Assembly: GCA_905478995.1 (NCBI GenBank)
Contig: CAJQKT010000008.1
Location: 1 to 61,236 of the forward strand
Direction of reading: 5' to 3'
DNA length: 61,236 nucleotides
Source: an uncultured Pseudomonadales bacterium
Lineage (GTDB): Bacteria; Pseudomonadota; Gammaproteobacteria; Pseudomonadales; UBA7434
Positions 41,640-46,930 of this stretch are shown here, one piece after another (position 1 is the stretch's first letter; every line of letters begins with the position of its first letter). The notes under the pieces were generated by a model that was given only the letters and a program-made list of their open reading frames with translations, had not been told where the DNA came from and made no database searches. A program made the translations under genes and the position numbers.

Positions 41640-42662
41640 ATGCCACAACTTGCCTTTGACACTGCGATTAACCAGTTCATTGACCACCTCAAAGTGGTTC
41701 GGCGCCTGTCTCCACATACTCAAGCAGCCTATCGACGTGACTTACAACAGTTTTTTTCGTTTTGCCAACAGGGAAAAATCAATCATCCAAACGCTTTAGA
41801 TGACTCGACTAAACCCATTGCTGTAGCAGACATTGATGCCGTGCTGGTACGCGGGTTTATCAACACCCTGCGCATGAAGGATATGGCAACGGCGTCGGTA
41901 CATCGCAAGCTATCCAGCATTCGCTCTTTTTTTCAATACTACCTAGAATTCTGTGCCAGCAGCTTAGAAAAAGTCGATCCAACACAGAGCATAAAGGCGC
42001 CAAAGACTGCAAAAAAATTGCCGGTAGTGCTCGACGTTGATCAGATCAGCCAACTTTTAGACCAGACATCAGGTAACGATTTTTTAGCGCTACGTGACAA
42101 CGCAATATTGGAAGTGTTTTATTCCGCAGGCCTACGTCTCGCCGAAGTAGCCTCGCTAGATATTGGCAGTATAGATTTGCAGAGCAAGCAGGTAAAAGTG
42201 ACAGGGAAAGGGAGCAAGCAGCGGGTACTCCCTCTAGGCTCAAAGGCACTGCAGGCTGTTATCCGTTGGCTACCGGCTCGCAATACTATTGCACAACAAA
42301 ACAATCACGCATTATTTATTGGTCAACACGGTAAACGGCTTAGTCATCGGTCAGTGCAACTGCGCTTAAAAAAGGCGGCGCAAACACTCGACCATGCTCA
42401 AAATTTGCATCCACATATGTTGCGCCACTCGTTTGCTAGCCACATGCTGGAATCAAGCGGTGACTTGCGTGCCGTGCAGGAGCTACTAGGGCACGCCAAC
42501 CTTTCAACGACACAAATATATACCCATCTTGATTTTCAACAACTCGCAGAAGTTTATGATCAAGCCCATCCTAAGGCACTGCGAAAATCCAAGCCGTCTA
42601 AAGCTCAAACATCGCCTCAACGACTAGTAAAGCCAGCGCCGACTGAGCCCAACACAACATAA
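41640..42662 (+). CDS. xerC: Tyrosine recombinase XerC
   Basis: XerC with XerD resolves chromosome dimers at dif sites. The 340 residues have the N-terminal SAM-like core-binding domain (HLKVVRRLSPHTQAAYRRDL) and the catalytic domain with Arg in SAGLRLAEVASL, Lys in KVTGKGSKQRVLPL, HMLRHSFASHML, the second His in ELLGHANLSTTQIYTH and the nucleophile Tyr in IYTHLD. A basic C-terminal tail of about 30 residues rich in Lys, Pro and Thr goes beyond the usual 298-residue length. No dif-like site was searched for reliably. Confidence 0.97.
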   Translation: MPQLAFDTAINQFIDHLKVVRRLSPHTQAAYRRDLQQFFSFCQQGKINHPNALDDSTKPIAVADIDAVLVRGFINTLRMKDMATASVHRKLSSIRSFFQYYLEFCASSLEKVDPTQSIKAPKTAKKLPVVLDVDQISQLLDQTSGNDFLALRDNAILEVFYSAGLRLAEVASLDIGSIDLQSKQVKVTGKGSKQRVLPLGSKALQAVIRWLPARNTIAQQNNHALFIGQHGKRLSHRSVQLRLKKAAQTLDHAQNLHPHMLRHSFASHMLESSGDLRAVQELLGHANLSTTQIYTHLDFQQLAEVYDQAHPKALRKSKPSKAQTSPQRLVKPAPTEPNTT

Positions 42663-42689: not shown

Positions 42690-43478
42690 ATGCCAAAAAA
42701 TCAGATCCTGGAACCTATCAAAATAATCACCTTTGACCTAGATGATACGCTATGGCCGATTCGCCCAGTTATTGAGCGTGCCGAAACAAAGACGTATCGC
42801 TGGCTCACAGAAAATGCGCCACAAATAACGGATCAATTTAGCCAGAGTGATATGCTTGCCTTTAAATTGGCGCTCATGCGAAAAGATTCATCCTTACGCC
42901 ATCGCATCAGCGATATGCGACGCAACGGTTATCGCGAGCTAGCTTTAGCCAGTGGCTACACACCCAGCGAAGCAAGCAAGTTGGCCTCACAGGCGTTCGA
43001 GACCTTTATTGAGCTTCGACAACAAGTCAACTGTTTTGCTGGGGTTGAAGCAATGCTAGAAGAGCTTGCAAAAAATTATATGCTCGGAGCTCTGACAAAT
43101 GGCAATGCCAACCTAAAGAAGATACCTATTGGGCGACATTTTGATTTTTCAATTTCAGCCGAATCAGTCAATGCTAGTAAACCAGATCAAAAAATATTTA
43201 ACGCTGCGTTAGAGCAGGCAAGTCTTTTTAACGGATCAATGGTGCAGCCAAACGAAGTAGTACATGTAGGAGATGACCTCCACACCGACGTTGGAGGGGC
43301 AATGCAAGCCGGATTTTATACCGTATGGCTGCGGGCGAAGCCTGACGAAATGCAAGATTATCTTAAGTATGGCGACGAAGAAGCGTCAACAGTAGCACCT
43401 ACCATCACTCCGCATGCGACGATCGACACCATTACTGCATTACCCAAAGCACTAAGCGGCATTCAATACAGCCAATAA
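42690..43478 (+). CDS. HAD-family phosphatase (YigB-like)
   Basis: This 262-residue haloacid-dehalogenase hydrolase has motif I FDLDDTLWPIRP with the two aspartates, motif II LGALTNGNANL, motif III lysine in NASKPDQKIF and motif IV HVGDDLHTDVGGAMQAG. In E. coli the YigB relative dephosphorylates FMN, so a role in riboflavin synthesis is possible. It lies 27 bases after xerC, as in E. coli and Pseudomonas. Confidence 0.92.
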   Translation: MPKNQILEPIKIITFDLDDTLWPIRPVIERAETKTYRWLTENAPQITDQFSQSDMLAFKLALMRKDSSLRHRISDMRRNGYRELALASGYTPSEASKLASQAFETFIELRQQVNCFAGVEAMLEELAKNYMLGALTNGNANLKKIPIGRHFDFSISAESVNASKPDQKIFNAALEQASLFNGSMVQPNEVVHVGDDLHTDVGGAMQAGFYTVWLRAKPDEMQDYLKYGDEEASTVAPTITPHATIDTITALPKALSGIQYSQ

Positions 43479-43556
43479 AAACCTCTGCTCATACTGTATT
43501 GGTGCGCTCAGCCTTAACATTACACTTTGGTGCGTGAGCGGTGGCCTCTTTACTTA

Positions 43557-44099
43557 TTAAATAGGCCGACTGCCGTAATTACTCTCAGGTTTTCTTGGTG
43601 GATCAGCCATAACATTAGGCTTCACATTAACGATAGCCCCACCCATTCGTAAAAATTTTTCAACTTCCGTTTCTAGCTCTGTACGAACTCGCTCTCGACT
43701 CGCGACATTGCGCGTCTCAGCAACTTCATCTTTTGAACCAATAAAAGTAAGGTCTACACTAACTTTCTTTTGGTAATCCACTGGCTCAGATTTCGATTTG
43801 TTAGATCGAGCCTTGACTGATGGTTTAGCTCGATTAGATTTAGCAGTTGTCGCTGATTTTTTTGTCACAGCGACTTCTGTCTTCTCAGATAATTTTTTAG
43901 GCGAGGTCGCTTTCGCGCCAACCTTGGTAGCAGAAGACTTTTTCTCTATCGGTTTTTTGGCAGCCACAGACTTAGCTTTGACCGCTTTACTTTTCAACGG
44001 CGTTTTAGCGGCCGGCTTTTTCTTGGCGGTCGCACTTTTAACGCGTGTGGTTGGAGACGGTGATTTGACAACGGCTTTTTTACTCACAACTATACTCAC
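43557..44099 (-). CDS. SutA-like RNA polymerase-binding protein with histone-H1-like N-terminus
   Basis: The end of this 180-residue protein, MGGAIVNVKPNVMADPPRKPESNYGSRPI (key residues GG, PNV, ADPP, KP, YGSRPI), closely resembles the C-terminus I recall for Pseudomonas SutA, a slow-growth regulator that binds RNA polymerase. SutA has an acidic N-terminus. Here the first 110 residues are instead Lys/Ala/Ser/Pro-rich (AKKKPAAKTPLKSKAVKAK), like histone H1 or AlgP. The mid region KKVSVDLTFIGSKDEVAET is unrecognised. Start is GTG at 44099 or GTG at 44087; neither has a good ribosome site. Nearby glnK-amtB-ubiK-yifB is the SutA neighbourhood in Pseudomonas as I remember it. Confidence 0.72.
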   Translation of the reverse strand: MSIVVSKKAVVKSPSPTTRVKSATAKKKPAAKTPLKSKAVKAKSVAAKKPIEKKSSATKVGAKATSPKKLSEKTEVAVTKKSATTAKSNRAKPSVKARSNKSKSEPVDYQKKVSVDLTFIGSKDEVAETRNVASRERVRTELETEVEKFLRMGGAIVNVKPNVMADPPRKPESNYGSRPI

Positions 44100-44617
44100 T
44101 ATTTTGTCAGGAAAACGCTTAAAGCGAACGTGTTTCAGCTAGCCTCACCCGCTTCTTCAAGTCAAACAATCAGACTTTAGAAAGAACATAATTTGAACGG
44201 CTGAGCGCTACCTTTTTCGAAGTAAGTATAGTTATAGCTAAATTCTGAGAAACCGCCATCAAAGAAAAAGTTAAAAAAAAATTACTGCAGGCCCAGTTCA
44301 CAAAAAAAATAAAAAGCACCAGATGTTGTGGGGTTAGGCATGCAAGAGCACAAGCAAATTTGAAAGTACTGTAAAAAGACCGAAGTACAAAGCAAAGTAC
44401 GTGAGTACAACTTTTAAGCAAAAGGAAGTGTTTGCTCCGGCCATACTCAATGGCCAAGAGGCAAAAATAACCAGGCAAACAAAAGCACATGCCGAAGCAG
44501 ATTAATCAATACCAATGTGCTAATGAACTTGCAGCCACCTCGGACGAGGCCGCTGGGTTAATTGCATCTTATGTTGCGCCGATTGCACGGCGCGAACAAC
44601 AGATACGGCAAGCGGTG
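44100..44617. other. 518-base gene-poor region between the sutA-like gene and glnK
   Basis: The stretch is A/T-rich and has no reading frame I believe in. A 106-codon minus-strand frame (44170-44490) and an 87-codon plus-strand frame running into glnK antisense look accidental. It should hold the promoter of the sutA-like gene. Four copies of a (A/G)AGTAC hexamer cluster at 44364-44408. Confidence 0.5.
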
Positions 44618-44974
<357 letters not shown>

Positions 44975-45180: not shown

Positions 45181-46443
45181 TTAACCTTTAGAGCTTGCAA
45201 ACTCAGGATAAGCCTCCATCCCACATTCCGAGAGATCGACGCCGTCGTACTCTTCTTGTTCACTCACTCGGATGCCCATAATAGCCTTAATAGCCAGCCA
45301 AACAATCAAGCTTGTCACAAAGACCCAGACGAAGATTGCTAACAATCCAACGATCTGCCCGCCAAAACTTGCGTCGCCAAAAATGGCCACTGCCAACACA
45401 CCCCAGATACCAACCGTACCGTGGACTGAAATAGCGCCAACAGGATCATCTATTTTGATTTTGTCCAGGAGCACGATACTTAGTACAACTAAGACTCCGC
45501 CAATCGCACCTATGATGGTAGACATTAGGGCAGATTGAGATGCCGGATCAGCTGTAATCGCCACCAAACCTGCCAAAGCGCCGTTAAGTGCCATGGTCAA
45601 ATCTGCCTTGCCGAACATCAAGCGCGCAAGAATCAAAGCCGCAATTAATCCGCCAGAGGCAGCAGCATTCGTATTCATAAACACGTTGGCCACTTCGTTC
45701 GCAACTTCAATACCACCAAGCTTGAGCGTTGAGCCACCGTTAAAGCCGAACCAGCCCATCCACAGGATGAAGGTACCCAGCGTAGCCAGCGGTAAATTAG
45801 CACCCGGTATCGCCTGAGCGCTGCCATCCTTGCCATACTTACCTTTACGTGCACCCAGTACAAGTACACCCGCTAATGCCGCTGCTGCACCTGCCATATG
45901 AACAATACCAGAACCAGCATAATCGCTGTAATCAAGGGCACCCAAGAACGGCACATCTTTGCCACCCCAAGTCCAACCGCCTTCGATAGGATAAATAAAG
46001 CCCGTCATAACAACAGCAAACAGTAGGAATGCCCAGAGCTTCATTCGCTCCGCTACAGCGCCAGACACGATTGACATGGCCGTTGCAACAAATACAACTT
46101 GGAAAAAGAAGTCTGATGCACCGGAATACACCGAATCACCGTCAAAACCATTTTCAGCTGATGCCGCAAGTACCGCTGCTTTGTCGAGGCTACCAGTCGT
46201 GTCAACGCCTGATAAGAAGAAGCCACCGTCATACATAAACTGATAACCGCAAACCATATACATGGTACTAGCGATCGCGAAAAGTGAAATATTTTTGGTA
46301 AGAATTTCGGTCGTATTCTTCGAGCGAACCAAACCGGCTTCAAGCATGGCAAAGCCCGCTGCCATCCACATTACTAACGCACCACAAATCAAAAAGTAGA
46401 AAGTGTCTAGTGCGTATTGGAGTTCAAAAATTTGATTTTCCAT
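45181..46443 (-). CDS. amtB: Ammonium transporter
   Basis: This is an inner-membrane Amt/Rh/MEP ammonium channel of 420 residues with about 11 membrane helices. Both pore histidines are visible, in GSGIVHMAGAAAAL and GAISVHGTVGIWG, as is the conserved MWMAAGFAMLEAGLVRSKNTTEIL (key LEAGL and RSKN). The start ATG at 46443 has TGAGGT eight bases before it; a frame extension of five codons lacks support. It has no cleaved signal peptide like that of E. coli AmtB. P-II genes on both sides fit GlnK-dependent gating. Confidence 0.96.
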   Translation of the reverse strand: MENQIFELQYALDTFYFLICGALVMWMAAGFAMLEAGLVRSKNTTEILTKNISLFAIASTMYMVCGYQFMYDGGFFLSGVDTTGSLDKAAVLAASAENGFDGDSVYSGASDFFFQVVFVATAMSIVSGAVAERMKLWAFLLFAVVMTGFIYPIEGGWTWGGKDVPFLGALDYSDYAGSGIVHMAGAAAALAGVLVLGARKGKYGKDGSAQAIPGANLPLATLGTFILWMGWFGFNGGSTLKLGGIEVANEVANVFMNTNAAASGGLIAALILARLMFGKADLTMALNGALAGLVAITADPASQSALMSTIIGAIGGVLVVLSIVLLDKIKIDDPVGAISVHGTVGIWGVLAVAIFGDASFGGQIVGLLAIFVWVFVTSLIVWLAIKAIMGIRVSEQEEYDGVDLSECGMEAYPEFASSKG

Positions 46444-46504
46444 TACTGTATACCTCAATGTTCTAATAAATTAACCGGCCACCAATAGTTTGGTATGCTC
46501 GGAC

Positions 46505-46930
<426 letters not shown>

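Follow-up and report, generated by a model that had tools for sequence, protein, structure and literature searches.

What a strongly basic, histone H1-like arm may do on a protein that otherwise resembles SutA, a factor binding RNA polymerase, is the question raised by a gene of an uncultured Pseudomonadales bacterium (lineage UBA7434, assembly GCA_905478995.1). The window analysed here is a stretch of 61,236 nucleotides of contig CAJQKT010000008.1, and its genome is referred to as G000. SutA has been described as acidic and largely unstructured (PMC8632087, PMC9300723). An arm of the opposite charge on the docking domain of such a protein would offer another way of acting on transcription in slow growth.

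The minus-strand open frame at 43557-44099 is a single frame, of 180 aa counted from the first GTG. The second GTG of the frame is codon 5, at 44087, and the conserved start thus lies four codons inside the 180-aa reading. In all eight members of the genus that start with GTG, the window included, a GAGAGT-like hexamer was found exactly 6 bases 5′ of this GTG (the window and G007 have GTGAGT, G009 has GCGAGT and G002 has GAGAGA), and the other four members start with ATG. Since the first GTG falls within the hexamer aligned with the GAGAGT of the relatives, the start was placed at 44087, giving 176 aa, and the start of the longest open frame at 44099 was dropped. The lysine-rich region is by this alignment of hexamer and GTG in the eight members in frame with both the RNA-polymerase-binding domain (RBD) and the start of the relatives, as the initial annotation requires. 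A scan of positions 43400-44700 detected two promoter-like sites on the plus strand, with 1.5 expected by chance, and neither a promoter-like site on the sutA (minus) strand nor a terminator. A plasmid search at the protein level gave no match. The gene and its parts are as follows.

43557-44087, minus strand: sutA ortholog, 176 aa, GTG start set by the start and hexamer of the relatives; Pfam and PDB matches
44094-44099, minus strand: GTGAGT, ribosome-binding-like hexamer belonging to the GTG at 44087 and including the first GTG; from comparison with relatives
43755-44087, minus strand: H1-like N-terminal arm, 111 aa, net +28; from composition and the comparison of G000 with G007
43707-43754, minus strand: conserved segment DLTFIGSKDEVAETRN between arm and RBD; from conservation in genus and order
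43599-43703, minus strand: SutA RBD, PF20661; Pfam match, predicted helix
43560-43598, minus strand: C-terminal tail PRKPESNYGSRPI; from conservation in genus and order

The C-terminal part was recognised by the Pfam SutA-RBD profile PF20661 with 33.7 bits in the 180-aa and 33.8 bits in the 176-aa reading (cut-off 29.3), and the only solved chain matched was P. aeruginosa SutA (PDB 7f0r chain G; E 1.5e-10, covering residues 128-180 in the numbering of the 180-aa protein). The profile search thereby upheld the SutA-type C-terminus proposed from the sequence alone; the likeness had been placed in the last 30 residues and is real, but it extends over about 53 residues of the window protein. With the whole-length SutA model of NCBIfam, NF041490, the C-terminal part alone aligned (50.7 bits for 180 aa, 50.8 for 176 aa) and the cut-off of 145 was missed. 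This model is narrow, because just one of eight scanned proteins passed it, the Pseudomonas-like L190 (176.6); the long-armed L037 of the same genus scored 50.7, and L043 of the genus together with L080, L091, L144 and L151 of the order 58.7-80.2.

Ten residues of the docking interface, listed from PMC9300723, were read off the alignment with 7f0r chain G. Six were identical (R64, L67, F74, L75, G78 and G79) and four were conservatively changed (K60R, M71V, V81I and I84V). On the polymerase side, beta S59 and E73, near the docking residues, are unchanged in the beta subunit of the host genome (residue numbers follow chain 7xya_C and are taken to be native). The host genome also contains RpoS (447.9 bits, cut-off 378.7), and sigma-S is the main target of P. 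aeruginosa SutA (PMC9300723). An AlphaFold2 model of the core, built on an alignment of 59 SutA cores (mean pLDDT 73.8, pTM 0.39), predicts a single long helix in the RBD, at core residues 21-40, which correspond to P. aeruginosa SutA 57-76 and the helix of the solved structure, and an extra 4-residue helix at 7-10. The part DLxFIGSKDE of the DLTFIGSKDEVAETRN segment is invariant in all 12 genus members, and the segment falls partly where SutA has its wedge loop, P. aeruginosa residues 54-57 aligning with TRNV. A GS[KR][DE]E-like segment before the RBD is common to 38 of 150 loci in the order. The form FIGSKDE/FLGSRDE before the RBD was observed in several short-armed families (compared were window 43707-43754, L080, L087, L091 and L123). 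In the PRKPESNYGSRPI tail 11 of 13 columns are invariant among the 12 genus members, and its Y, G, R and last I are invariant or nearly so across 59 sequences of the order. Judged from the conserved residues, it is well supported that the RBD helix and the following strand of the window protein should dock on the beta protrusion, as in P. aeruginosa SutA.

The surroundings of the gene identify it further. The flanking genes in the window, all named by recognition and not by family search, are these.

41640-42662: XerC-like gene, before the HAD-like gene
42690-43478, plus strand: HAD-like gene, convergent with sutA
44618-44956, minus strand: GlnK/P-II-like gene
45181-46458: AmtB-like gene, after the GlnK/P-II-like gene

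All 12 sutA loci of the genus have the XerC-like and HAD-like genes on one side and the GlnK-like gene on the other, and the window gene is by its position the sutA ortholog within the genus. For loci of other genera, most of them covered by roughly 1 kb per side, both flanks were present in 19 of 138 loci, at least one in 81 and neither in 57. The single AmtB-like gene at 45181-46458 adjoining sutA is itself flanked by two GlnK-like genes, at 44618-44956 and 46505-46843, the names again resting on recognition.

The arm preceding the DLTFIG motif (DLxFIG) comprises 111 aa with 30 Lys, 3 Arg and 5 acidic residues, giving the net charge of +28, and further contains 27 Ser+Thr, 17 Ala and 8 Pro. 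The initial annotation spoke of about 110 residues rich in Lys, Ala and Pro; length, lysine content and H1-like character agree with this, but Ser+Thr and Ala exceed Pro. Among the 77 open frames of at least 100 codons within the window, which served as the chance comparison, the most basic 60-residue stretch of the arm has the most Lys (16) and is second by net charge (18). First by charge is the candidate frame 541-909 on the plus strand, whose very basic 60-residue stretch has a net charge of +20 with 13 Lys. The richest 60 residues inside the 176-aa protein hold 19 Lys.

In G007, the closest relative compared, the arm is of equal length, with dN 0.09 and dS 0.18 relative to the window, against dN 0.007 and dS 0.22 in the core. 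The resulting dN/dS is about 0.5 for the arm and 0.03 for the core; taken by itself, the shortfall of dN relative to dS in the arm does not reach significance (p = 0.06). Basic residues were kept at 31 of 33 arm positions versus 60 of 78 for the others (Fisher, one-sided p = 0.025, two-sided p = 0.034). The arm is therefore taken to be translated, fast-changing and charge-keeping, on account of the open frame, its equal length in G007 and the preferential retention of basic residues. A polymerase-binding-type tail carrying a basic arm, as originally read, is thus borne out at the level of sequence by the RBD match, the retained docking residues and the charge of the arm.

The proteins most useful for comparison are SutA itself, the Pseudomonas proteins AlgP and PhaF, and the histone H1-like families. 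The RBD of P. aeruginosa SutA docks on the beta protrusion and its wedge loop enters the gap between protrusion and lobe, while its acidic arm was inferred to be pulled into the main cleft, which is positively charged; activation requires the D/E-rich arm and ceases once the N-terminal domain is deleted (PMC9300723). The window protein shares with it the RBD helix and strand, the docking residues and the YGSRPI tail (PF20661, NF041490, 7f0r), and differs in an arm of +28 over 111 residues, whereas P. aeruginosa SutA has 23 D/E in 55 residues (PMC9300723). AlgP and PhaF likewise have a disordered arm of the Lys/Ala/Pro type joined to another domain (PMC9239181), but their arm is C-terminal and that of the window protein N-terminal, and at the other end PhaF binds PHA granules and AlgP is of unassigned function, whereas the window protein has a domain predicted to dock on RNA polymerase. 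Binding to DNA is described for KPAA peptides and for a fragment of the AlgP arm; PhaF is believed to anchor granules to the chromosome, and the authors of that paper speculate the same of AlgP (PMC9239181). With the H1-like families HC2 (PF07382) and NF038053 the arm shares composition, but the window protein had no match to HC2 and reached on NF038053 17.2 bits against a cut-off of 80 in the 180-aa reading, with no match up to E 0.01 in the 176-aa reading. The ortholog L037 is also below both cut-offs (HC2 20 versus 40, NF038053 38.1 versus 80). The HC2 and NF038053 families are not known to have an RBD. A basic-armed SutA was not encountered in the titles and abstract beginnings of the papers listed by full-text searches on SutA, a scope that does not include the two founding SutA papers, and a literature search on lysine-rich tails with nucleoid and sigma factor found nothing.

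We propose, with a probability of about 0.5, that this SutA ortholog is a flexible tether with its RBD on the beta protrusion and its arm non-specifically on DNA. That a basic-armed SutA exists is an observation; the tether is a plausible mechanism for it, starting from orthology, a conserved docking surface and a translated basic arm, as read from the sequences. The docking half of the proposal is well supported by the residues described above, and the RBD would accordingly sit on the beta protrusion of RNA polymerase. For the DNA-binding half we infer that the H1-like arm is disordered and would bind DNA by charge and without sequence preference, as the KPAA-type arms of AlgP and PhaF are reported or believed to do. 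During slow growth such a tether could raise the local DNA concentration or keep polymerase at the nucleoid; actual docking, binding to DNA, an effect on transcription and its timing in slow growth are all expected on this proposal, by inference. An arm of +28 would be repelled by the main cleft of the polymerase and attracted to DNA, closing the route of the acidic arm. Because a basic arm should be unable to take that route, any opening of the lobe would be left to the conserved DLxFIGSKDExAETRN segment at the place of the wedge loop. Since P. aeruginosa SutA no longer activates once its N-terminal domain is removed (PMC9300723), an ortholog that has no acidic arm may lack activating power altogether.

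The arms of the 12 genus members, with lengths and charges from hand-chosen starts, vary widely.

G010: 174 aa, net +48
G009: 153 aa, net +56
G000 (window): 111 aa, net +28
G007: 111 aa, net +27
G003: 82 aa, net +21
G002: 25 aa, net +5
G011: 25 aa, net +5
G004: 22 aa, net +3
G005, G006, G001, G008: 16 aa each, net +2 to +4

Length ranges from 16 to 174 aa and is at most 25 aa in seven of the 12 species, so a long SutA arm is dispensable; what the genus conserves is the docking core, to which the basic arm is an optional addition. In a tree of five flanking proteins of this one locus, rooted on two Oleispira-type loci, the long arms fall into two non-sister groups (G000, G007 and G009; G010 and G003) with support of 81-100 for the separating branches; not every genome contributes all the genes, the branch to the outgroup is long, and the tree gives no number of arm gains. 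Diverged repeats of 12-15 bases occur in L037 and L039, whose arms are the longest.

These observations favour the main rival of the tether, that the arm is a weakly constrained low-complexity extension with nothing specific to do, grown from a short basic N-terminus by the duplication of short Lys-containing units, and that the function of SutA lies in the shared core. The range of lengths within one genus and the two non-sister groups would both be expected of it, as would the repeats, those of 15-30 bases in the paralog L033 included, and the arm dN/dS of about 0.5; the seven species that lack a long arm are the strongest counter to the tether. We nevertheless consider such an extension rather unlikely. 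The window's own arm, scanned for tandem repeats, contains none, Lys/Arg has been kept preferentially between the window and G007, and each of the five long basic arms includes just 1-5 acidic residues.

A second family of proteins also speaks against an extension without a role. The host genome encodes three RBD proteins, and the second, L033 (G000 contig 18, 75145-78216, with its arm and RBD spanning locus positions 763-1641), has a different C-terminus type, here called class B. Its arm of about 240 residues has a net charge near +69, and the protein passes both HC2 (66.7 versus 40) and SutA-RBD (33.5 versus 29.3), the HC2 score being from L033 alone among the class B proteins. The class B paralog was found in seven of the 12 genus genomes, and in six of these seven it is long-armed (154-245 aa, net +45 to +69), the exception being G010 (40 aa, +11). 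Judged from sequence, H1-like arms sit on two proteins with an RNA-polymerase-docking domain in this genus. An order-wide class B search matched 226 of 390 genomes, some through other RBD classes. Among the matches listed outside the genus the open frames were of at most 166 aa, apart from one of 540 with an 11-residue arm, and no long-armed class B paralog was seen among them. All 76 scanned loci gave a row, and outside the seven genus loci the highest net charge was +13 (L003, of a third class, start doubtful).

The arms of the two proteins show no correlation in length (long SutA arm and short class B arm in G010, the reverse in G002 and G005), and in all seven genomes with both proteins at least one of the two arms is at least 82 aa. 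In five of the 12 genus genomes, among them G004 (97% complete) and G008 (91%), no long-armed RBD protein of either kind was found, so even members of this genus can do without H1-like RBD arms. Weak matches to the class B profile in G001 and G008 (3.1e-7 and 8.5e-7) were taken to be the third RBD class. That class (L032; L049, L012 and L015) has the RBD near the start and a YDDFGEPLRW-like conserved C-terminal motif. The SutA-RBD had at least one match at E 0.001 in 120 of 145 order genomes; it is multicopy in many of them (G135 and G044 were noted), with up to 11 matches in G135.

The origin of the arm may be approached from its relatives in the order. A genus-core profile matched 164 of 390 genomes, and 150 SutA loci were analysed (12 of the genus, 18 others and 120 further regions, the remaining weaker matches being left out). 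Net charge before the RBD ranged from -24 to +54; 64 loci were at -5 or lower, 81 from -4 to +5 and five above +5, and all five belong to the genus of the window. Next highest was +5, in L081 and in L139 (start doubtful). Starts followed a fixed rule (the first ATG in the open frame, else the first GTG), which leaves room for error in single arms: that of L039 is too short and those of L040, L041 and L139 are probably too long. Pseudomonas-like loci, recognised by sequence, stand at the acidic end (about -19 to -24) with -19 to -23. A reversal of charge, as first described, therefore holds relative to these, but the nearest relatives of the window protein are near neutral. The further claim that the basic arm replaced an acidic one did not stand, and a direct swap was rejected, given that near-neutral arms are the commonest in the order and that an acidic arm, sought in all 12 genus members, was found in none. 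For the same reasons the likely history is that this genus lengthened the N-terminus of a SutA that had been short and near neutral, not that an acidic arm was exchanged. The basic-armed variant is unusual within the order. In a sample of the class, the 59-sequence profile matched three of 369 genomes at E 1e-8, the window's own included and all of the same order, and no SutA was found outside the order in this sample; PMC9300723 mentions SutA in Alteromonadales.

GlnK and AmtB sense and import nitrogen, and the adjacency of sutA to GlnK/AmtB-like genes lends some colour to another reading, in which the arm binds a different polyanion such as polyphosphate or RNA and would bring polymerase to granules or condensates when cells starve. 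Under nitrogen starvation AlgP, whose KPAA-armed protein has a net charge of +55, is found with polyphosphate granules (PMC9239181). We regard this reading as unlikely: the GlnK neighbourhood is also found at short-armed orthologs, and composition cannot tell DNA from other polyanions.

Also conceivable is that the basic arm turns SutA into an inhibitor or hibernation clamp, the opposite of its role in P. aeruginosa, by wrapping DNA next to the polymerase and slowing escape or silencing. H1-like proteins compact DNA, which would suit such a clamp, and the D/E-rich arm needed for activation in P. aeruginosa (PMC9300723) is absent from all 12 genus members. The core is unchanged in orthologs whose arms have only 16 residues, however, so inhibition need not be the role of the core, and we hold the clamp to be quite improbable.

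That the frame is open by chance, or that the assembly fused a Lys-rich gene to a SutA tail, has next to no probability, for although the genus genomes are drafts and the related records mostly metagenome assemblies, the same joint and an equal arm length occur in G007, different long arms occupy the same place in G009, G010 and G003, and the flanking genes are conserved; misannotation or a frame error is likewise ruled out by the starts of the relatives, the conserved flanks, the substitution pattern and the in-frame arm.

Returning to the tether, a wider reading may be offered tentatively, as possible but somewhat doubtful: that this genus has built linker-histone-like arms on both SutA and an RBD paralog, making up a class of polymerase-to-nucleoid tethers, and that arm charge is an evolvable dial, in so far as one docking module carries by lineage a DNA-like acidic arm, a short neutral arm or a DNA-binding arm. 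Orthologs with a shared docking core and arms of net -24 to +54 amount to a natural experiment separating the roles of core and arm. If the arm binds DNA, the coupling between polymerase and nucleoid would be unlike that of sigma factors, of secondary-channel factors and of the acidic SutA.
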